This document shows positions 2,106-57,650 of a DNA stretch of 64,000 nucleotides, piece by piece. The notes below the pieces were generated by a model. That model was given only the letters and a program-made list of their open reading frames with translations. It made no database searches and was not told the origin of the DNA. Both the position numbers and the translations under genes were made by a program. Source of the stretch: Alphaproteobacteria bacterium (GTDB lineage Bacteria; Pseudomonadota; Alphaproteobacteria; Micavibrionales; Micavibrionaceae); assembly GCA_030424975.1 (NCBI GenBank), contig JAUHVY010000001.1, positions 1,175,093 through 1,239,092 on the forward strand, read 5' to 3'. How positions within the stretch are numbered: position 1 is the first letter of the stretch; each line of letters opens with the position of its first letter.

Positions 2106-2272
2106 TCTCGTCCCTTTTCATAAGATTTGCGCGCATATTACATGGTTTTTACTATCATTGCATTCTGCGCTGCACAAAACAGGTGTTTTTTTACATGATC
2201 AATTTGCTTTTTTTTAAATAAACATGGTATTTTACAAATAATAAAAAAAGATATTTGGGGTTAAATTTTATT

Positions 2273-3067
2273 ATGTCTGTTAAACATAATCCGCAGAATG
2301 TACATATGGCGTTCGACAACGCCTGTGCGGGTATGGGGCATAATCAGGTTGCATGGCGCCTCAATCAGAGTATCGACAGCCGAGATGAAATTATTACTGC
2401 ATTCAAAGATATGGGGCAGTTTCAACTCACCCCTTTGAGTAGTAAGTTTGCGGACGCGCGCGTTGCGCTCGCCTTTTATGCCGGCAATGGTATTGTGGCA
2501 AAAGTTATTCCCGATACGTTCTATGAAAACGTAGACGATGTACATGCTATTCCTCCGATTACATCAGACACCGTTAATACGGAGATGGGGAAATTCATCA
2601 TTGATACCTATCCGTTTATTGAAAAAGGCGACATAAAAGCGAGGGATGTTGAAGATACGCGATCGCGTCTGTCTAATATCGGATTAACATTCAATAATGA
2701 ATACGGAAACAGCCGTAATTTACATCGCATGCCGGATCGCAACGGTACAGTCGTAAGTATCGATTCAGGAAACTTCATCAGAGAAGATAGTGACCTGCAG
2801 CCGGAAACTTTAAAAGAACAATGGCATGCATATATGACGGAGATCTTCCCGATCTATGGCGAAGGGCGAATAGATCCGCAAAGCAATGACACAACACATG
2901 AGTTTATGTCATTACACAATCCGCATACCGATATCATAGGTTTTGACCTTTATCGTGAAGACCCGATTATCAGAGAGTCGCAAGAACACAATAATGGCAC
3001 AACATCAAAGCGAGGAAATTTCTGGAGCATGTTTGTACCAAAAAGATCAGAATTTACTATAGGGTAA
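2273..3067 (+). CDS. Hypothetical protein, first member of a tandem paralogue pair (264 aa)
   Basis: Not recognised. It aligns along its whole length with the next gene. Shared blocks include VAMAFD/VHMAFDNA near the start, II.[TA][TF]KDMGQ, D-A-R-[VI]-[AS]-[LF]-AFYAG[ND]GIVAKVIP near residues 62-82, R[NM]x[HV]xMPD[RK]NGT, and FP[IV]Y[GK]EGR. The protein looks soluble, with no signal peptide. The ATG at 2273 is chosen over an upstream TTG because GGGG at about 2257-2260 suits it. Only four bases separate its stop from the paralogue's start, so the two are one transcription unit. Confidence 0.85.
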   Translation: MSVKHNPQNVHMAFDNACAGMGHNQVAWRLNQSIDSRDEIITAFKDMGQFQLTPLSSKFADARVALAFYAGNGIVAKVIPDTFYENVDDVHAIPPITSDTVNTEMGKFIIDTYPFIEKGDIKARDVEDTRSRLSNIGLTFNNEYGNSRNLHRMPDRNGTVVSIDSGNFIREDSDLQPETLKEQWHAYMTEIFPIYGEGRIDPQSNDTTHEFMSLHNPHTDIIGFDLYREDPIIRESQEHNNGTTSKRGNFWSMFVPKRSEFTIG

Positions 3068-3071
3068 GAGA

Positions 3072-3884
3072 ATGAGTTTCGATAAGTATCAAGTAAGATC
3101 GGTTGCCATGGCATTTGACCACGCGAAAGCGGGATTAGGTGCCAATCAGGTAAACCTTGAACTCCGCCGCAATATGAATGCCGAACGAGAGATCATAACA
3201 ACCTTGAAAGATATGGGACAAGACAGATTGGTAAATTTAACCAGTTGTTTTGATGATGCACGTATTTCATTCGCCTTTTATGCAGGTGATGGCATCGTGG
3301 CAAAAGTCATTCCAAAAGATTTTGATACTGATGATCAATTCATACACCACCTGCCTGCAATAACATCTCATACCGTAAGGGGTGAATTAGATGATTTCAG
3401 CATCAAGCTATACCCATGGGTACCGGGCAGCTACACAACACAAAAAGATGTTGAAACATTACGAACAACGATGAATGCTGTCGGAGAAAACTTTTCTAAC
3501 GGTGATGACACGCCGCGAAATGTTCATAAAATGCCAGATAAAAACGGCACTTTGGTTGGAATTGATTCCAACATGTATATCAGTGCTTATAACGGCAAAA
3601 ACACGCCACCGGAATTACTGGAACACTGGAATCGGTATTTGGCGCTTATGTTCCCGGTATACAAAGAAGGCCGCGTTCCGGAACAAACACAAGATACAGA
3701 TTTTCAATTCAGATCAATACATGATCGTGAAGCAGGCATTGTCGGTTTTGATGCTATGCGTTATCTCGAAGACGGCAAAGATCCGATTATTATGGCCGCA
3801 GAAAATCCGCATGTTCAAAAGAAGTCATTTTGGGGCAGCATATTTGGCTCTTGGGGGGCTTCAAACCAACACGAACCGGGCTAA
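3072..3884 (+). CDS. Hypothetical protein, second member of the tandem pair (270 aa)
   Basis: Paralogue of the preceding gene. The AFYAGDGIVAKVIP core, the KMPDKNGT segment and the FPVYKEGR block are all retained, so the copies come from one duplication that has since diverged (roughly 40% identity by eye). The C-terminal tail differs, ending in KSFWGSIFGSWGAS. AAGAGAATG gives a weak ribosome site. No enzyme motif is apparent. Conservation of the central hydrophobic block suggests a common fold with different partners or surfaces. Confidence 0.87.
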   Translation: MSFDKYQVRSVAMAFDHAKAGLGANQVNLELRRNMNAEREIITTLKDMGQDRLVNLTSCFDDARISFAFYAGDGIVAKVIPKDFDTDDQFIHHLPAITSHTVRGELDDFSIKLYPWVPGSYTTQKDVETLRTTMNAVGENFSNGDDTPRNVHKMPDKNGTLVGIDSNMYISAYNGKNTPPELLEHWNRYLALMFPVYKEGRVPEQTQDTDFQFRSIHDREAGIVGFDAMRYLEDGKDPIIMAAENPHVQKKSFWGSIFGSWGASNQHEPG

Positions 3885-4616: not shown

Positions 4617-6005
4617 TTAGATATGGATCGGACGTTTATGTACGGCTAACGCTGCCTCTTTCACGACCTCTGTCAATGTCGGGTGTGCGTGACATGTACG
4701 GGCAATGTCTTCCGCTGTGCCTTCAAATTCCATCACGCTAACGACTTCCTGGATCAAATCACCGGCATTCGGGCCGACAATATGTGCACCAAGAATGCGG
4801 TCTGTTTCTTTGTCTGCGATGATTTTCACAAAACCATCAGTACAGCCCATTGCACGTGCACGGCCATTCGCCATGAACGGGAATTTACCGACATTATATT
4901 TCACGCCTGCTTCTTTCAGCTGCTCTTCGGTTTTACCGACATTAGCAACTTCCGGCCATGTGTACACAACGCCAGGAATGCAATCATAATCGATATGTCC
5001 GCTCTCTCCTGCCAAAAGCTCTGCCAAGATAACGCCTTCATCTTCGGCTTTGTGCGCAAGCATCGGCCCCACGATCACGTCACCGATCGCAAAGATACCT
5101 TCAACAGATGTTTCAAAATATTCATCTGTTTTGATGCGGCCGCGATCGTCAAGCTCAACACCAACATTCTCAAGACCTAGACCGTCAACATATGGTTTAC
5201 GGCCAATCGCCATCAATACAACATCCGCCTTTAATGTTTCTGCATCACCGCCTGCTGCAGGCTCCACGCTTAGCTCAACGCCTTTTGCAGATGTTTTTGC
5301 GCCTGTTACCTTGCTTGATAACTTGAACTCAAGACCTTGTTTTTCGAATAATTTCTTGGCTTCTTTACGCACTTCACCGTCCATACCAGGCAAGATATTG
5401 TCAAGATATTCAACAACGGTTACTTTCGCACCCAGACGACGCCATACGGTTCCAAGCTCCAGACCGATAACGCCACCGCCGATAACGACCATGCTTTTCG
5501 GAACTTCCGGAAGCTCAAGTGCGCCTGTAGAAGAAACGATTTTCTTTTCATCAATTTCAATGCCCGGCAATGAAATCACATCAGAACCGGTTGCAATAAT
5601 GATATTGTCCGCTTCGTAAGTTTCCTTACCGACTTTTACTTTTCCGGCTTCAACGATTTCACCAAGACCTTCGATACGGGTGATTTTGTTTTTCTTGAAC
5701 AAGAAATCAATACCCTTTGTATTGGCATCAACAACACCGTCTTTGTGCTTCATCATACCTTTCAGGTCTAACTTTGGTGATGCCTTGATTCCAAAGTCAC
5801 CGAAGTGATGTTCGGCCTCTTCGAATTTTTCAGACGCATGCAATAATGCCTTTGACGGAATACAACCAATATTCAAACATGTACCGCCAAGTGTCTTACG
5901 TTTTTCAATACAGGCTGTTTTCATGCCAAGCTGCGCACAACGAATTGCAGCAACATAACCGCCGGGACCTGCACCAATTACAATCACATCAAATTTATCG
6001 GACAT
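4617..6005 (-). CDS. lpd: Dihydrolipoyl dehydrogenase (E3)
   Basis: FAD- and NAD-dependent enzyme that reoxidises the lipoyl groups of 2-oxo acid dehydrogenase complexes. In this context it is E3 of the 2-oxoglutarate dehydrogenase complex with SucA and SucB. The FAD-binding GAGPGG is at residues 11-16. The redox-active disulfide is C43/C48 in CLNIGC. The NAD-binding GGGVIGLELG lies near residue 175. The catalytic H441/E446 pair is in HAHPTLTE. At 462 aa it is full length. It is the last TCA gene of the dispersed minus-strand series and is followed by a strong terminator. Confidence 0.98.
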   Translation of the reverse strand: MSDKFDVIVIGAGPGGYVAAIRCAQLGMKTACIEKRKTLGGTCLNIGCIPSKALLHASEKFEEAEHHFGDFGIKASPKLDLKGMMKHKDGVVDANTKGIDFLFKKNKITRIEGLGEIVEAGKVKVGKETYEADNIIIATGSDVISLPGIEIDEKKIVSSTGALELPEVPKSMVVIGGGVIGLELGTVWRRLGAKVTVVEYLDNILPGMDGEVRKEAKKLFEKQGLEFKLSSKVTGAKTSAKGVELSVEPAAGGDAETLKADVVLMAIGRKPYVDGLGLENVGVELDDRGRIKTDEYFETSVEGIFAIGDVIVGPMLAHKAEDEGVILAELLAGESGHIDYDCIPGVVYTWPEVANVGKTEEQLKEAGVKYNVGKFPFMANGRARAMGCTDGFVKIIADKETDRILGAHIVGPNAGDLIQEVVSVMEFEGTAEDIARTCHAHPTLTEVVKEAALAVHKRPIHI

Positions 6006-6169: not shown

Positions 6170-7303
6170 ATGAATAAGCAAAGCGGAATTAAGGACGTAT
6201 TTTCACGTCAAACGGGGTTTAGCGAAGACGAATTAAAAGATATTGGTATGAAGCTGATCCTTGAGAGCCGCAAGGCTGCAAACAACAGTGATCATCACCG
6301 TTATCATGTGGGATCTGCGCTGCTTGCGGTCGATAAAAAACAAGCATACACAATCACCTCAAATGCTAATCGAATTCCTGATGCCCTAAAAGATCAGGGT
6401 ATGGATTCACATGATCAGATTGGTCATGGCAGCCCGACCGTACATGGTGAATTCCCCCTGCTCTATCAGGCACCACCATCTGAACATATATTCCTTGGGT
6501 GCAACACGCCCAACTGTGCATCTTGTTTGAAATCAGCAATTATGCGCGACGTTGATGCATTATTTGTTGATGCGAAAAGCCTTCCCGGTTTTAAAAGTCC
6601 CGATGCGGAAGAAAACCCATGGACACAGGACCGCGCAGATTTTTGGAATGATTTATGTATTCCGATTGCACGCGCGGCGCAAATTCCAATTTATGCCATT
6701 AATCCCGAGGAAGATAAAATAAGCATCCTACTCTCAGGAAAGCCACCGCATTTACGCCCAAAACCCGAATCAGAAGCCAGCATTTTAACCGATAACCAAA
6801 TTCTGGCATTACAAAACAATCCTGATTTATTCCTCTCGCAGTTGCGCGGAAAACGTGCTGCTATTGGCGTTGCAACGGACAAGTCGACGGGCGAAAATAT
6901 GTTTATTTTTGCAGAAGACAGTATGCCACCCGGATTTGAATCCGGGCGTGACCAATATTTGGTTGATCGATTTGCCGACCAACATTATCACTTCCCGCTC
7001 GACCCGATTATTCACATGATGATGACAGCATCAAAACATAATTTAGAATTACAAAACGGTAAGATATTAACCAATTTCGTTCCAAGCTCAGGCAGACAGT
7101 TGGATCTGGCATCAATCGGATTAAAAGATATGCTGTTCACCAAAGATACGCTTCCGCCAACAGAGGAAGCGGCGAAAGCAATTTCCGATTTATCGCATAT
7201 GGGTGTAATTTCCTATCATAAAATCAAGCCAAAACAGGCGATTTTACAAATGATCAACCAATCATTCGGATCAATGGAAAAACAAAGCACCATCGAGCAC
7301 TAA
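6170..7303 (+). CDS. Zinc-dependent deaminase-fold protein (cytidine deaminase superfamily), 377 aa
   Basis: The active-site pattern of the cytidine/nucleic-acid deaminase superfamily is complete: H92-G-E94, then P114-N-C116-A-S-C119, giving three Zn ligands and the proton-shuttling Glu. About residues 20-135 form the catalytic domain. A second, apparently inactive deaminase-like domain follows at about 225-330 (LDPIIHMMMTASKH, KILTNFVPSSGR). The same two-domain plan and the NG-x-I-x-[TS]-N-x-VP-[TS]-S element occur in the gene at 10074, so the two are distant paralogues on either side of the LOG-like gene. The closest class may be Bd3614-type deaminases, but I cannot confirm that. The substrate is unknown. 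Confidence 0.8.
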   Translation: MNKQSGIKDVFSRQTGFSEDELKDIGMKLILESRKAANNSDHHRYHVGSALLAVDKKQAYTITSNANRIPDALKDQGMDSHDQIGHGSPTVHGEFPLLYQAPPSEHIFLGCNTPNCASCLKSAIMRDVDALFVDAKSLPGFKSPDAEENPWTQDRADFWNDLCIPIARAAQIPIYAINPEEDKISILLSGKPPHLRPKPESEASILTDNQILALQNNPDLFLSQLRGKRAAIGVATDKSTGENMFIFAEDSMPPGFESGRDQYLVDRFADQHYHFPLDPIIHMMMTASKHNLELQNGKILTNFVPSSGRQLDLASIGLKDMLFTKDTLPPTEEAAKAISDLSHMGVISYHKIKPKQAILQMINQSFGSMEKQSTIEH

Positions 7304-7316
7304 TTCTTACATAACG

Positions 7317-9839
7317 TTACGTCAGTTCGAATTGCTGATCTGCATCATCATCTTGGTCATACGAGTTAAAACCGCCCTTTATTTCAGCGCGCGGCACATC
7401 TAGATCATAGCCCAAATCGGCGGCATATTCGTTTCTTGCCTCTAATGCCTGCTCAGGCGTGTCATAGAAATGCATATTCAAAATTTCGCGTTGCTCCGGC
7501 GTGAACGATTCCTTTAACGCATCGAAATATCCGAACTCTACAGCTGTTCCGTTTTTCACGGCAGAGTTCACAAAATGCACGCGTTTCTTTTGATCGTTAT
7601 CAAAGCCGGGGAAAATACCATAGCCGCGCTCTTCGACCATTAAATTGTGATATAGCGATGTATAAATCTCATAATCGGTACCGACACCGCCAATAAATGA
7701 CGTGACAACATGCGCAGGAGCGATAATCGCGTGCTGGCGTTCACCCATTTGATCAAATGTCACACTATGGAAGTGATTATCACCAAAGCCGAGATAATTA
7801 CCCTCAAAACCACCATTTTCAACATCCATATCATATTCACGCAATAACGGTTTTAATGATCCCTCTTTGCGTGACGCGATTGGCACACGAAAAGCAATAG
7901 ATTGAAATTCATTGTGCCCATCTTTGAGGGCATCTAACGCACCACGGAAAAACTGCCCCATAATGAAACGGCCACCGCCACCATGCGTCATGGTAATCGT
8001 CTTCTTCGCGCTTTCATTCGTATATTTATATGCATCTTCATTCCCTGATTTCAGGTGGGAACTGGCAGAGCCAAGAAGACACTCGACGAACCCTGTCTTC
8101 TCACCTGAAATAGCAGAAAATTCATCGGCATCGATCATGTGATATGGTTTTTTCTCCGGCATTTTTTTCATATGCTCGGTATCCCATTGCCCCTCAGCCA
8201 TTACTGAGCGGAAACTGTGCTCATCTGAAAACCCACGGAAGACATGCTCAGAGCGTGATGTCACTGTTCTGAACTTCACCGCGTTATGATATGACGGCAT
8301 TTCAGAAGCGCGCACCTGATGATTAATCATCAACGGGCGACCAATTGCACTTGCGCCGCCAAGAGGTTTAATTGTTGCGCGGTTTGAAATCACCATGCGC
8401 GCCACTAGTTTTTGTTCAAGTTCATATAATTCAGGATCAACCCCTTTTGGCGCATCTTTCGGCCATGGTTCAACAACCGTTCCATCAGCTTCAAGGAAGG
8501 CTTGCTCCAGATCTTCATGCGATTCAATTCTGAAACTCGTTTCAACGCGCTCATAACCCAACAACCTTAAGTTGCCATGATTGTAGGTTACATCTTCAGG
8601 CGGTATAGCCGATTTATCATCTAGCATCCAATCTATGTCGGTCCATTGATCAGGGTCTTTTCCCTTATCTGTATAGAAATCGTTTAGCTGATTAACATCT
8701 TTACCCCAGGCATTTTGCTGCGCGAATGAAACTTCACCGAAGTTAAGGTTTGAAATTAACCTCGCACCTGGCTGATCTTTTAATTCATGCACGCGCGGTT
8801 TTTCGAGTTTTGGAATCCCCATAACCTCGACGAGTGCGCGCATAGCGCGAGCGCTTGCAAATTGATGTTTGAAATATCCGCTATGCGGATCAGAGCGTAA
8901 TTTTTCAATCGTAATCGGCTTTTGCTGCTCATCGACGATACCATGATAATCTGCCGGCACATCAAAATCATTCAAATCAAGCTGAACGCCTGCTTTTTCC
9001 ATGTCTAAGTGACGTTGTGTTACAGGCAAGAAACGTCGGTTTTGTTCAGACGCAGAAATAAAAATTCCCTCCTTAGGGATTGGCTGGCTCTCATCATGCT
9101 CCAAAAATTTAATATAATAACTAACGTAACTTTTATGCGTATCAGGAACGTGATGCCCCTTGCCTTCCATTTCCGCTTTTGCCTCTTCTAACATCATCAG
9201 AAGGTTTACAGCACCACCAACGGCATTCTGGAGCTCATTGACGCGCTTTCCAGGAAAAGCATGGCCGCTTTCAAAACATTCGTCGACCAAGTGCAAATCA
9301 CGCACAGCATCCCAAACACTTGCCTGCTTTAAGATGCTCGGCACGACCATTTCGCGATCTTCGCTCATGACAATAACATGTTTGGCATCTTCAACACCGA
9401 TTGCGGATAACGCCTCGTTCAGCTCTCGGCTGGTGGCGTCTTCCACTGGTTCCAACATACCAATAATTGCCTTACCGCGCGCAATCTCAATGGCGTTATC
9501 TTCTTCTTCCAGAGAATCAGGGCCGGCAATAAAACTTTTCTTGGTTTCCAATGCAAAGACTGAATGTGACAAAGGGTGATCATTCTCCCAATGCTTCAGG
9601 TCATTTTCCGTGACCATAATCCCCTTATAACCGGGGTCCCATTCATTTTCACGTTCTGCCCAATCTTCTGTAAGATAAACCGCACTGGATACTGTGCCGG
9701 AATCAAGCGATACAGGCAGCAATTCGACCGCTTCATCATTTTGCGTTCCATCAAAATCTTCAGAACGATCAGGTAATTTTTTAAACAAATTACGAAGAGA
9801 TATATCCGGCTTATATGGCCCGATAACAACACGCGACAT
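7317..9839 (-). CDS. Large protein with C-terminal LOG-like (TIGR00730-type) nucleotide glycohydrolase domain, 840 aa
   Basis: Residues about 585-800 match the LOG / cytokinin-riboside-monophosphate phosphoribohydrolase fold. A first strand FVECLLGSASS is followed by HGGGGRFIMG at 619-628 (family GGGxxGxMG). MGERQHAI at 698-705 sits where the family has MxxRK. IGGVGTDYE at 716-724 corresponds to PGGxGTxxE. LOG enzymes cleave the base from nucleoside monophosphates. Residues about 255-400 faintly recall HAM1-type nucleotide pyrophosphatases (FISASEQN, ITIEKLR, QPGARLIS), which is unproven. Residues 1-250 are unassigned. Typical LOG proteins are 180-450 aa, so this is unusually long. It lies between two deaminase-fold genes. 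Confidence 0.75.
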   Translation of the reverse strand: MSRVVIGPYKPDISLRNLFKKLPDRSEDFDGTQNDEAVELLPVSLDSGTVSSAVYLTEDWAERENEWDPGYKGIMVTENDLKHWENDHPLSHSVFALETKKSFIAGPDSLEEEDNAIEIARGKAIIGMLEPVEDATSRELNEALSAIGVEDAKHVIVMSEDREMVVPSILKQASVWDAVRDLHLVDECFESGHAFPGKRVNELQNAVGGAVNLLMMLEEAKAEMEGKGHHVPDTHKSYVSYYIKFLEHDESQPIPKEGIFISASEQNRRFLPVTQRHLDMEKAGVQLDLNDFDVPADYHGIVDEQQKPITIEKLRSDPHSGYFKHQFASARAMRALVEVMGIPKLEKPRVHELKDQPGARLISNLNFGEVSFAQQNAWGKDVNQLNDFYTDKGKDPDQWTDIDWMLDDKSAIPPEDVTYNHGNLRLLGYERVETSFRIESHEDLEQAFLEADGTVVEPWPKDAPKGVDPELYELEQKLVARMVISNRATIKPLGGASAIGRPLMINHQVRASEMPSYHNAVKFRTVTSRSEHVFRGFSDEHSFRSVMAEGQWDTEHMKKMPEKKPYHMIDADEFSAISGEKTGFVECLLGSASSHLKSGNEDAYKYTNESAKKTITMTHGGGGRFIMGQFFRGALDALKDGHNEFQSIAFRVPIASRKEGSLKPLLREYDMDVENGGFEGNYLGFGDNHFHSVTFDQMGERQHAIIAPAHVVTSFIGGVGTDYEIYTSLYHNLMVEERGYGIFPGFDNDQKKRVHFVNSAVKNGTAVEFGYFDALKESFTPEQREILNMHFYDTPEQALEARNEYAADLGYDLDVPRAEIKGGFNSYDQDDDADQQFELT

Positions 9840-10073
9840 TAGAACACCCTTACTTTTTCTAAACCGTTACACTATTTATTTTCTTACTTTATGGCCGTGA
9901 CACCTCCGGTAAGATTTTTTTACCCTAAATTCCTAACACACTGAGAATTAAAAACGCAAACTTTTATGATAAAAAAATAATGTTGCTTTTTTGCTTAATT
10001 AACAACAAGATAGAACGCTAAAAATTTCATAATAACACGATCCGTACGCGATAAAGAAAGTTCAACTCTATAC

Positions 10074-11054
10074 ATGAGCGCATCACCATTTGAATTAATG
10101 AAGCTCGCCCGCATTGCAGAGGCAAAAAGCCCGCATCCGACTCATAAAGTCGGGGCGCTCATATGCGGCATAACCCCCAAAGGTCATCATTTCGAAATTT
10201 CAAAAGCCAATATTTGGCCGGAAAAATTAATCACAACCATTGGCAAAGAACAAAAACTGGGGAATGCCAGCACAACAATTCATGCTGAAATCGCCGCGCT
10301 TTGTAGCATGGACACGCCATCACAAGGGGCGGATATCTATATTACCGACTTACCATGCCCTAATTGCGCAAAAGGATTGTGTGAGGCCGGTATAAACGCC
10401 GTTTATGTTGATGCTCACACGCACAAGACAGCTTTAGGGAAGAAAATTAAACCGTATTTTGAAACGGTATCCTTGCCTTTGTTTGAAAAAGCACGCATCC
10501 CTGTTTATGAAGTTGATATTGAACGACATGATCTTCGTGCTTTGCTGCGCCCGCATATTATCGAAGGTGATGATGTCGCCGTTAGCCGTCCGTTGGAACG
10601 TATCGCGGTACCAAAAGATAAAGCACCTGCCGCTGCGTTTTATGAATATATAAAAACATTGCAAAAAACATATGATGCAAACACACCTTTTGCGGCATGT
10701 CTTGCACATAGCAAAGATACAAAAAAATCATTTCTAATATCCTGCGAAGCGCATATCTCTATTGGGTTTACAGCCGACGATGTGCGCGCCATCAGAACGG
10801 CGCAACGTAAATATGACCCCATAATTCAACCGGTTAATCGTTTGCTTTTGGCCTGCGCGCGCTATGGCGTTAAAATTGATAACGGCTATATATATTCCAA
10901 CCACGTTCCGACATCACGAGAATTCGTGAACATGATTGGCGCACATTTGTTGTCGTCATATATCGGAAATAAAGACATTTGCCGCGACCAATGGGGCTTA
11001 GATGCCATGCAACAAATCAAAAAACATAAAATTATGGATTTAGAAACTTTGTAA
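10074..11054 (+). CDS. Zinc-dependent deaminase-fold protein (dCMP/cytidine deaminase-like), 326 aa
   Basis: A typical dCMP/tRNA-deaminase-like start (ELMKLARIAEAKSPHPTHKVGALI) leads to the Zn site H70-A-E72 and P94-C95-P96-N-C98. A degenerate second deaminase domain covers about residues 185-310. It keeps the secondary-structure pattern (NRLLLACARYG, YIYSNHVPTSR) but has no HxE or CxxC. The E. coli cytidine deaminase has a comparable active-plus-broken architecture. It is divergent from the LOG-like gene across 234 bases, which should hold the promoters. The reaction is inferred only as hydrolytic deamination; base or nucleotide specificity is not visible. Confidence 0.82.
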   Translation: MSASPFELMKLARIAEAKSPHPTHKVGALICGITPKGHHFEISKANIWPEKLITTIGKEQKLGNASTTIHAEIAALCSMDTPSQGADIYITDLPCPNCAKGLCEAGINAVYVDAHTHKTALGKKIKPYFETVSLPLFEKARIPVYEVDIERHDLRALLRPHIIEGDDVAVSRPLERIAVPKDKAPAAAFYEYIKTLQKTYDANTPFAACLAHSKDTKKSFLISCEAHISIGFTADDVRAIRTAQRKYDPIIQPVNRLLLACARYGVKIDNGYIYSNHVPTSREFVNMIGAHLLSSYIGNKDICRDQWGLDAMQQIKKHKIMDLETL

Positions 11055-11097
11055 TTTTATAATGTCCTCGCGTGAACAACAAATAACGGATAAAAAT

Positions 11098-11520
11098 ATG
11101 AGAAAAATTCTCTTCGCTCTTTTTTTAACTACGCTCTCAGCCATGCCGGCACTGGCGCAAAATAACAACCCGATTAATCGATGCTTCGAAGGTGTTGATG
11201 CAACAACCCCACCGCAAGGCGTTGTTGACTGCCTCAGAGAAGATTACGAAGACAGAGATATGATACGTCAGCAGATAGAGGGTGAGCTGACAGAAAAAAT
11301 TCGTGACAACACCAATGGCACAACACATGCGCAGGCCTTAAATGATGTTAAAAATTTTGAAACCAGCGTTGAAATGTTTGAAAGATACAGAAACAGAGAA
11401 TGCAGCAATCAGGAAACATTCCGTCGCGATAAACCGAATGAGGGTTTATATTCCAAATATGTTTGCATGTATAAAATGACCTCGCACCGCATCGACATGA
11501 TGATTGACCTCATGAAATAA
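11098..11520 (+). CDS. Exported protein, LprI/DUF1311-like, 140 aa
   Basis: The start at 11098 gives a clean Sec signal peptide (MRKILFALFLTTLSAMPALA, cleavage after ALA), with GGA upstream. An earlier in-frame ATG at 11062 would place 12 hydrophilic residues before it and is rejected. The mature part is a helical periplasmic domain with four cysteines (CFEG, DCLRED, ECSNQ, VCMY) and the F.RYRNREC element. This fits the DUF1311/LprI family, some members of which inhibit lysozyme. That role would suit a genome rich in muramidases, but the assignment is moderate. Confidence 0.7.
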   Translation: MRKILFALFLTTLSAMPALAQNNNPINRCFEGVDATTPPQGVVDCLREDYEDRDMIRQQIEGELTEKIRDNTNGTTHAQALNDVKNFETSVEMFERYRNRECSNQETFRRDKPNEGLYSKYVCMYKMTSHRIDMMIDLMK

Positions 11521-11602: not shown

Positions 11603-12820
11603 TTAAACATCAAGCAACAGACGCTGTGGGTCTTCCAATGCTTGCTTGATGCGTACCAAAGAGCTAACAGCTTCGCGGCCGTCAACAATGCGGTGATCAT
11701 AGCTTTGCGCCAGATACATCATCGGCTTAACAACAATTTGTCCTGTTTTCTCATCAACCATCGGGCGCTTTTGAATAGAGTGCATACCAAGAATACCTGA
11801 TTGCGGTGTATTCAAGATTGGCGTAGACATCAAAGATCCAAACACACCACCATTTGTGATTGTGTATGTACCGCCTGTCATTTCATCCATAGACAGCTTA
11901 CCATCGCGCGCACGCTTGCCGAAATCTACGATTGTTGCTTCGATCTCAGCCATGCTCAACTTATCAGCATCACGGATAACAGGAACAACAAGACCTTGTG
12001 GTGTAGATACCGCAACGCCGATATTGTAGTAGTTTTTGTAAACGATTTCATCGCCCTGAATTTCTGCGTTAATCGCAGGGAATTCTTTCAACGCCTGAAC
12101 TGTCGCCTTAATGAAGATCGACATAAAACCAAGCTTAATACCGTGTTTCTTTTCGAAAACATCTTTGTATTCATTACGCAAAGCCATCACAGGGCCCATA
12201 TCGACTTCGTTAAATGTCGTCAACATTGCTGCTGTGTTTTGTGCTTCTTTCAAACGACGGGCAATAACCTGACGTAATTTTGACATTTTAACACGCTCTT
12301 CACGTGGGCCTTGATCTACGGCAACGGCAGGTGCTGCTGCACTTGAAGATGCACCGCCTTTTGCAAGGAAGTTTTGAACATCTTCTTTTGTAATACGGCC
12401 ATCTTTACCGCTCGCAGGAACCTGACTAGCATCAAGATTATTATCCGCAAGCAATTTACGCACTGCCGGAGATGTTTTTGCATCTGCGCTTGGCGCTGCT
12501 GCTTTTTCTTCTTTCGCAGGGGCTTTTGCTTCTGCAGCTTTCGGGGCTTCGTCCTTCTTGGCTGGCGCAGCGTCATTTGCTACGGCGCCTGCTTCCAATT
12601 CACCAAGGATCGCACCAACTTCAACGCTCTCACCTTCACCAACGGCGATCTTAACGATCACACCATCAGCAGGAGCATTAACTTCGAGTGTTACTTTATC
12701 TGTTTCAAGCTCTACAATCGGCTCATCGGCCTTTACCGCTTCACCCTCTTTCTTAAGCCACTGCGCAACTGTCGCTTCGGCTACGGATTCACCTAATGTA
12801 GGGACAACGATTTGAGTCAT
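11603..12820 (-). CDS. sucB: 2-oxoglutarate dehydrogenase E2, dihydrolipoyl succinyltransferase
   Basis: Core acyltransferase of the 2-oxoglutarate dehydrogenase complex, making succinyl-CoA. It has an N-terminal lipoyl domain with lipoyl-lysine K42 in ETDKVTLEV. An Ala/Pro/Lys linker follows, then the peripheral-subunit-binding domain at about 134-170 ([11 protein letters not shown]...GRITKEDV). The catalytic domain ends in DHRIVDG with H376 and D380. The 405-aa length is standard. It is separated from sucA by 4.4 kb of thiamine and unknown genes. In most alphaproteobacteria sucA and sucB are adjacent. Confidence 0.98.
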
Positions 12821-57050: not shown

Positions 57051-57650
57051 ATGGCAGTATTAAAGCCCCAAAATGAAAATTCCCCACTTATGGCACCCGG
57101 TATTTTGGCCGATCACCAAATTCGTGATCTGGCGGTTAATCAGGGCATGATTGAGCCGTTCGTTGAAAAACAAAAGCGAGACGGTGCGATTTCTTACGGG
57201 CTTTCATCTTATGGTTATGACGCCAGATGTTCCAGCGATTTCAAGATCTTCACTAATGTTGACAACGCAATGGTTGACCCGAAAAACTTCTCGGATCAGA
57301 GCTTTGTTGACAGAAACACCGATATTTGTGTAATACCTCCCAACAGTTTTGTTCTGACACATACTGTGGAATATTTTCGCATTCCGAAAGATGTTCTGGT
57401 AATTTGTCTGGGCAAAAGCACATATGCACGGTGTGGCCTGATTGTGAATGTCACACCACTGGAGCCCGGTTGGGAAGGCCACGTAACATTGGAAATTTCC
57501 AATACGACCCCTCTTCCGGCACGCGTTTATGCCAATGAGGGTATTGCGCAATTTTTATTTTTTAAAGGGAGTGATGCGTGTGAAACAAGCTACGCAGACC
57601 GAAGCGGAAAATACATGGGACAGCGCGGCGTTACTCTTCCCCGACTTTAG
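57051..57650 (+). CDS. dcd: dCTP deaminase
   Basis: Converts dCTP to d[13 protein letters not shown] near residue 52, [44 protein letters not shown] and the C-terminal [19 protein letters not shown] are family-diagnostic. 199 aa. First of a core run with murA, hisG, UPF0262, infA, maf and rng. Confidence 0.97.

Follow-up and report, generated by a model that had tools for sequence, protein, structure and literature searches.

HAM1 enzymes convert nucleoside triphosphates (NTP) to monophosphates (NMP), LOG enzymes convert the monophosphates to a base and ribose-5-phosphate, and the cytosine deaminase FCY1 belongs to the same metabolism as HAM1 and LOG1 of yeast. Here we describe a locus in a 64,000-nucleotide stretch of an alphaproteobacterial genome of the family Micavibrionaceae (assembly GCA_030424975.1, contig JAUHVY010000001.1, positions 1,175,093 to 1,239,092; the whole stretch is hereafter called the window), in which a protein with a predicted HAM1-like domain ahead of a predicted LOG domain (P0002, or HAM1-LOG) lies between two deaminases, P0001 and P0003, of a two-domain family that we call c0. 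We regard it as somewhat probable that these proteins represent a lineage-specific, nucleotide-degrading module for house-cleaning. In the open-licence PubMed Central (PMC) literature, which the search covered in part, we found neither a HAM1-LOG fusion nor this locus described.

According to the available portions of PMC5940212, over-expression of HAM1 and of LOG1 each protects yeast against 5-fluorouracil (5-FU) and 6-N-hydroxylaminopurine (HAP), the two genes show partial genetic dependence, and Log1p was placed after Ham1p. P0002 is predicted to have the same two enzyme folds, which in yeast were inferred to act in series from NTP through NMP to the base; however, the yeast enzymes are encoded by separate genes, whereas here one protein stands beside a two-domain deaminase of the deoxycytidine monophosphate (dCMP) type, and an FCY1-like deaminase is associated with it in relatives of the window locus. 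Conversion of NMP to base and ribose-5-phosphate is also the reaction of PpnN (YgdH), as described in excerpts of PMC6717881. PpnN (6gfl, Z score 19.2) and the LOG protein of Mycobacterium tuberculosis (7w2i, Z 20.1) share with the P0002 model the LOG fold and the GGxGTxxE motif, but the PAG1 and PAG2 domains of PpnN are unmatched in P0002 (Pfam, E value up to 1), and a predicted HAM1-like domain is fused instead. In the Kongming immune system (KomABC), as far as the accessible parts of PMC12948488 and PMC12774641 describe it, a step making deoxyinosine triphosphate (dITP; KomA with kinases) is joined to dITP-binding KomB and to KomC, which depletes nicotinamide adenine dinucleotide (NAD+). 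The pairing of a nucleotide-converting step with a HAM1-fold protein (9xvc) is common to both, but in our locus no NAD-cleaving effector was found, a LOG domain would stand in for it, and the site is a house-keeping one; the resemblance to Kongming goes no further than a shared fold and a shared idea.

Among deaminases, E. coli Cdd carries one active and one inactive deaminase domain per chain, a plan that it shares with CDADC1 and with c0. In the sections available of PMC12088426, CDADC1 has an inactive domain joined to an active one, and the inactive domain can be kept for structure. The active domain comes first in c0 and second in CDADC1, and the inactive domain of c0 has its own invariant residues, Y247 and P279. 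The N-terminal fold and zinc site of P0003 are those of dCMP deaminases (DCTD, T4, ComEB), which give its best structural and profile matches, but P0003 lies far under the ComEB cut-off and carries an extra domain.

Domain architecture of P0002

Neither standard scans (Pfam, NCBIfam, PADLOC) nor single-protein searches of PDB sequences gave a usable match for P0001 or P0002, which were resolved by family alignments and models. P0002 alone gave nothing useful in Pfam (to E 1), NCBIfam or the PDB sequences; partial matches to LOG and Ham1p_like came from its relatives that occupy this site in other genomes. An alignment and profile (A5) was built from 16 relatives of P0002, all found beside c0, and the structure of P0002 was predicted from it, with a model that is unreliable at residues 12–60, 350–432 and 825–840.

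The model has a LOG fold: 3qua was matched over residues 582–807 (Z 20.7, 171 residues aligned, root-mean-square deviation (rmsd) 2.0), and other rows of the search extend over 579–811. The A5 profile matches solved LOG proteins at E 4e-15, and the LOG part scored 67.5 in hhalign vs. 14.7 for the best shuffle. Its motifs are HGGGGRFIMG (619–628), MGERQ (698–702) and GGVGTDYE (717–724), and none of G620, R701, G718, G720 and E724 varies among the 16 aligned relatives. The PGGxGTxxE signature is present as IGGVGTDYE, its leading P replaced by I716, and the catalytic R701 and E724 are kept. P0002 itself gave no match to PF03641 at E up to 1, and two relatives scored 26.8 and 27.4 bits around its cut-off of 27. 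A weaker match to the LOG part came from the SLOG domains of ThsA defence proteins (Z 12.4).

Residues 70–343 of the model take up a HAM1 fold, with matches to 1vp2 (Z 12.8, 184 aligned, rmsd 3.0), to E. coli RdgB with inosine triphosphate (2q16; Z 12.2, 183 aligned, rmsd 3.2) and to dITP-bound KomBC (9xvc; Z 11.9, 179 aligned, rmsd 3.0). K82, E111, K123 and D161 are invariant in all 16 aligned relatives and, in hhalign, align one-to-one with K, E, K and D of the genome's own RdgB, which we take to be the HAM1 core residues. The score of that alignment was 30.6, compared with 12.3 for the reversed target and 19.2 for the best of 30 column shuffles. P0002 itself had no match to the Pfam HAM1 family (PF01725) at E up to 1, and a relative (L066) reached 17.2 of the 22.5 bits of its cut-off. 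We interpret the model as a HAM1-like domain fused ahead of a LOG domain, and this predicted architecture, like the genomic association described below, is solid. The middle domain is perhaps a degenerate LOG-like half, a tentative assignment: its hhalign score against the LOG part was 21.9, where 30 column shuffles reached 10.2 at most, but the probability was only 4.5%.

The two-domain deaminase family c0

An alignment of 54 c0 members (A6), P0001 and P0003 included, shows the H-x-E and C-x-x-C zinc columns to be invariant in 54 of 54 (H92/E94/C116/C119 in P0001 and H70/E72/C95/C98 in P0003). The two window proteins retrieve each other directly, at E 3.8e-10 and 1.2e-10. P0003 meets the cut-off of PF00383 (40.2 bits, 25 required); P0001 alone had no PF00383 match in Pfam, and its tie to the family lies in the direct matches with P0003. 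P0003 falls below the cut-offs of ComEB (TIGR02571; 47.3 vs. 219.45 bits) and of the anti-phage deoxycytidine triphosphate (dCTP) deaminase (NF041025; 30.6 vs. 400 bits), and PADLOC, run on the trio, returned one partial match, of dCTPase to residues 66–113 of P0003 (E 1.6e-9).

The predicted model of P0003 is confident (predicted local distance difference test (pLDDT) 96.9, predicted template modelling score (pTM) 0.94). In a structural search that probed mainly domain 1 and barely covered domain 2, the first domain matched the human dCMP deaminase over 142 residues (Z 15.8, rmsd 3.4) and the dCMP/dCTP deaminase of PBCV-1 over 133 (Z 14.1, rmsd 2.6); the best matches of the c0 profile are dCMP deaminases as well (E 9e-11). 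The C-terminal domain is zinc-less and has conserved residues of its own (K246-Y247, P253, P279-T-S-R282-E283, N286 and G289), of which Y247 and P279 are kept in 54 of 54 members and K246, R282 and G289 in 52–53. Foldseek laid E. coli Cdd (1ctt) along the whole P0003 model with E 8.8e-5 and a TM (template modelling) score of only 0.34. As modelled, P0003 is a dCMP-deaminase-like domain plus a zinc-less second domain, and this active-plus-broken plan is also supported by the family alignment, in which P0001 is included.

In a c0 tree of 41 hand-picked rows, three of them with very long branches, P0001 forms a fully supported, long-stemmed clade with three proteins from genomes G004, G007 and G015, and P0003 groups with genus mates and others; the tree program warned that the P0001 clade was possibly joined falsely to another long branch, and its deep placement is unsure. 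The P0001 type is the sole c0 match of those three genomes, where it is placed between lpdA and sucB, and the window genome holds both types. At the lpdA–sucB site most of the relatives read have the P0003 type; in the three loci concerned (L038, L039 and L040) one c0 subfamily has apparently been replaced by the other. Two c0 genes close together, with no HAM1-LOG beside them, occur in L119 and G125, and in G094 a second c0 lies on a different contig.

An earlier, sequence-only reading of the window had described a deaminase, a LOG-like protein and a second deaminase. All three open reading frames (ORFs) were confirmed where it had placed them, as were the complete zinc sites in its numbering, and the LOG motifs that it saw in the C-terminal third of P0002 are, in view of the profile match and the structural match to 3qua, more than chance. 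Structure prediction gave the LOG and deaminase folds that it expected of P0002 and P0003, respectively, and its active-plus-broken plan agrees with the model for P0003 and with the family alignment for P0001. It overlooked the HAM1-like domain, so "LOG-like" describes P0002 in part, and the plan that it called rare is not unique, given E. coli Cdd and CDADC1.

Distribution and genomic association

We surveyed 142 genomes of the order Micavibrionales and, for the class, 385 evenly sampled genomes. In the order, c0 is present at E up to 1e-20 in 102 of the 142 genomes, in three of seven families, some of the counted matches being fragments; at E 1e-3 the number is 111, and the best E values of the 9 genomes dropped (3e-7 to 7e-4) fit ordinary deaminases. 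Outside the order, the class sample gave at 1e-15 one partial match, to the first domain only. The named loci with P0003 relatives are mostly titled as Micavibrio or as Alphaproteobacteria metagenome-assembled genomes. Counted over the 79 named loci rather than the 102 c0 genomes, c0 adjoins lpdA and/or sucB in 76 (both in 46, lpdA only in 16, sucB only in 14) and neither in 3.

Profile A5 matched 128 genomes of the order, and by hand-picking among the matches listed we found a long HAM1-LOG in at least 42 of the 142; the other listed matches are short, LOG-like and stand-alone. HAM1-LOG lies within 4 kb of c0 in 27 of the 42 listed genomes, where uniform placement would expect about 0.5% of genomes. 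Because A5 was built from 16 proteins beside c0, it leans toward c0-adjacent genes; after exclusion of the 16 seed genomes, which were matched by hand through contig coordinates, the proximity is seen in 11 of 26. The seed-free association is weaker yet still far above chance, in statistics that, for HAM1-LOG and for the FCY1-like deaminase below, treat genomes as independent and ignore kinship. HAM1-LOG stands beside lpdA with no c0 beside it on the contig in a further 6 of the 42 (G079, G110, G111, G122, G123 and G124), and in one (G025) the contigs are cut between HAM1-LOG and c0. No c0 was matched in three of the 42 (G093, G111 and G123), and G080, G081, G055, G023 and others are split over pieces. 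A single-protein search with P0002 found it in 3 of 58 genomes, every time beside c0. Nineteen of the 79 named loci carry HAM1-LOG, 3 of them cut by contig ends, and its strand is opposite to that of c0 in all 19 and in the window.

The FCY1-like deaminase was found in 15 of the 79 named loci. Its profile (A4), built from six genomes of the locus, has yeast cytosine deaminase as its 13 best sequences (E about 1e-44 to 7e-43), the next family being a TadA-like protein at 3e-22. At a cut-off of 1e-75, picked after viewing the list, 18 genomes of the order have the enzyme, 17 of them together with HAM1-LOG; once the six profile-source genomes are set aside, HAM1-LOG accompanies it in 11 of 12 (Fisher p 1e-6). 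It stands beside both HAM1-LOG and c0 in 14 genomes, and a deaminase/HAM1-LOG/deaminase arrangement is therefore a recurring set. The exact trio is not: two c0 proteins flank HAM1-LOG in the window genome only, and the second deaminase elsewhere, if present, is FCY1-like, of another family than P0001. The sequence-only reading, which named a lack of co-occurrence in relatives as a refutation, thus withstands this check, since HAM1-LOG and c0 recur together; its interpretation is supported in part, because its candidate nucleotide-processing system is no fixed system in that exact form, and of its guesses at function house-cleaning is the one that we favour.

Among the 79 named loci, 11 have a sugar or nucleoside kinase of the PfkB family immediately ahead of c0 if a strict distance is required, and 13 if gene order is taken. 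Five named loci (L049, L061, L065, L068 and L070) have CYTH-domain proteins between lpdA and c0, in the slot that is otherwise that of HAM1-LOG; the matches in L068 and L070 are weak, and in three of the five the CYTH protein precedes a PfkB kinase.

Outside the order, four class genomes match A5 at 1e-22, G274 over most of the model, G173 over the first part only, and G358 and G251 over the LOG part only; no c0, FCY1-like deaminase, lpdA or sucB was present in the stretches fetched around these matches. In G251 (L186, 5310–6176 and 6372 onward) the LOG relative of P0002, in a frame of 779 amino acids (aa), comes directly after a miaA-like gene, which from its sequence we take to be miaA (tRNA isopentenyltransferase).

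Inheritance of the locus

Fifteen loci have c0, HAM1-LOG and lpdA all at full length. Over these, HAM1-LOG distances track those of c0 (r 0.68) and lpdA (r 0.59), values that none of 5000 permutations reached, and mean identities are 21% for HAM1-LOG, 42% for c0 and 73% for lpdA. Since its distances follow those of c0 and lpdA, the data fit a HAM1-LOG gene that is mainly inherited with the chromosome, with frequent loss and fast change. Among 50,697 phage records there was no match to P0002; P0003 had two weak partial matches on plasmids, and A6 had two partial matches in IMG/VR, both to the first domain only, the one that was read being a single-domain deaminase of 162 aa.

Possible function of the locus

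From the computed folds, invariant core residues and genomic association we infer the following activities, substrates, order of steps and link to predation. The HAM1-like domain of P0002 would convert a nucleoside triphosphate to the monophosphate, which the LOG domain would then split into a free base and (deoxy)ribose-5-phosphate, so that the nucleotide could not be re-phosphorylated; since both cores are intact in one fused chain, P0002 should do both steps in order. P0003, and perhaps P0001, would most likely deaminate a cytosine-type nucleotide such as dCMP or dCTP, acting on the same nucleotides before or after the P0002 steps, and the FCY1-like enzyme of relatives would deaminate cytosine released by LOG. 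The module probably acts on nucleotides that are unwanted, damaged or modified, and that in a predator could stem from digested prey. We favour house-cleaning because P0002 appears to have a HAM1-like domain as well as a LOG domain and the yeast enzymes were inferred to act in series. The genome's own RdgB, two LOG-family genes and Dcd suggest that the module would be an addition rather than a replacement.

Several observations weigh against this proposal. An ordinary RdgB and two further genes of the LOG family are already present in the genome, most c0 genomes lack HAM1-LOG (102 and at least 42 of 142, respectively), which suggests that c0 has a job independent of it, and in 8 of the 42 listed genomes HAM1-LOG lies elsewhere (G005, G018, G062, G065, G068, G093, G116 and G118). 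The link to the FCY1-like deaminase weakens at a looser E of 1e-20, where HAM1-LOG is present in 26 of 51 genomes (Fisher p 5e-5). The P0002 model is middling (pLDDT 71.5, pTM 0.71), and the alignment of its HAM1 part with the genome's RdgB, a one-sequence target, had a probability of only 28.7%. What we take to be the base-recognition parts of RdgB are not obviously kept in P0002, and a sensor role of the HAM1-like domain is therefore possible. Finally, divergence as fast as that of HAM1-LOG is unusual for a house-keeping gene.

A sensor role would suit Kongming-like immunity, which we consider fairly unlikely here, with a deaminase raising the level of a deaminated nucleotide upon infection, the HAM1-like domain sensing it and the LOG domain as the effector that destroys nucleotides and so halts the infection. 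In its fuller form, about which we are similarly doubtful, one HAM1-LOG protein would sense the triphosphate in the deaminase-altered pool and shred that triphosphate or the normal pool to bases. The logic would be that of Kongming, a phosphoribohydrolase replacing the NADase, and such a sense-and-shred defence, itself none too probable, would perhaps guard a predator from the modified nucleotides of its prey. Kongming likewise joins a dITP-making step, dITP-binding KomB and the effector KomC, and KomBC with dITP is among the structural matches of the HAM1-like domain; the ThsA SLOG domains resemble the LOG part, if more weakly. HAM1-LOG is moreover patchy and fast-diverging, but since both traits are also typical of defence genes they do not separate house-cleaning from immunity. 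In P0001–P0003 Pfam at E up to 1 matched no NAD-cleaving SIR2 or TIR domain, c0 is common on the chromosomes of the lineage and sits at a house-keeping site, PADLOC gave only the one partial match in the trio and no defence island in the ten neighbours scanned, P0002 had no match in the phage records, and the IMG/VR matches of c0 cover its first domain only; the inheritance of HAM1-LOG mainly with the chromosome also speaks against immunity.

The locus could instead serve feeding, as the catabolic line by which an epibiotic predator turns cytosine nucleotides of its prey into uracil and ribose-5-phosphate, an idea that we find rather improbable. LOG, dCMP-type and FCY1-type deaminases do fit such a route, as does the PfkB-family kinase before c0, and Micavibrio is a known predator; yet the same source, in the portions available of PMC3189940, credits the M. 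aeruginosavorus genome with full nucleotide synthesis and no known nucleotide transporter. The HAM1 step takes triphosphates, not the products of nucleases, and the predatory life of the window organism is a presumption. That c0 is merely the dCMP deaminase by which the lineage supplies deoxythymidine triphosphate (dTTP), with HAM1-LOG a chance neighbour, strikes us as quite improbable: c0 is closest to dCMP deaminases and common in its lineage, but 126 of the order's 142 genomes, among them that of the window, have a Dcd above its cut-off, and a role of c0 as a replacement for Dcd was rejected on this account. The proximity of HAM1-LOG to c0, far above chance, and their constant relative strand in the 19 named HAM1-LOG loci argue against a chance neighbour.

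If house-cleaning is the function, a natural HAM1-LOG fusion beside deaminases would independently support the serial action of HAM1 and LOG1 inferred in yeast, and would offer one purifiable protein in which the coupling of both steps could be measured. It would also bear on how a bacterium that digests others prevents modified nucleotides of foreign origin from entering its DNA and RNA. Were immunity the function, a phosphoribohydrolase effector would be added to nucleotide-based immunity.

Layout of the locus and neighbouring genes

The trio sits inside the oxoglutarate dehydrogenase cluster, with lpdA on one side and sucB on the other (gene names read from the sequences; Table 1). In the region of the gap between P0002 and P0003, no promoter-like match was above shuffled controls.

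Table 1. Coordinates of the features of the locus (positions in the window)
Feature	Position	Strand	Description
lpdA-like dihydrolipoamide dehydrogenase	4617..6005	-	left border; name read from sequence
P0001	6170..7303	+	377 aa; c0 deaminase, divergent subfamily
P0002	7317..9839	-	840 aa; predicted HAM1-LOG fusion; divergent from P0003, convergent with P0001
LOG domain of P0002 (predicted)	7407..8105	-	residues ~579-811
Middle domain of P0002	8142..8555	-	residues ~429-566
HAM1/ITPase-like domain of P0002 (predicted)	8811..9632	-	residues ~70-343
Intergenic gap	9840..10073		234 bases between divergent P0002 and P0003
P0003	10074..11054	+	326 aa; two-domain deaminase c0
sucB-like dihydrolipoyl succinyltransferase	11603..12820	-	right border; name read from sequence

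Seven bases 3' of P0003 begins a gene (11062–11520, + strand) for a protein of 152 aa, which resembles a signal peptide close to its N-terminus and is weakly similar to LprI (E 0.017) and to UmoC (E 2e-4). Locus L042 likewise has a related ORF after c0 (phmmer E 4.5e-8). PADLOC gave no convincing match among the 10 neighbour genes scanned, with one weak partial match to lpdA (E 7e-4). Farther upstream on the + strand (2255–3884) is a tandem pair of paralogues, each 270 aa long (c17), which had no Pfam or NCBIfam match and have relatives in L041 and, more weakly, in L090. The ordinary dCTP deaminase (Dcd) of the genome is also in the window, at 57102–57644 on the + strand, a position converted from genome coordinates.

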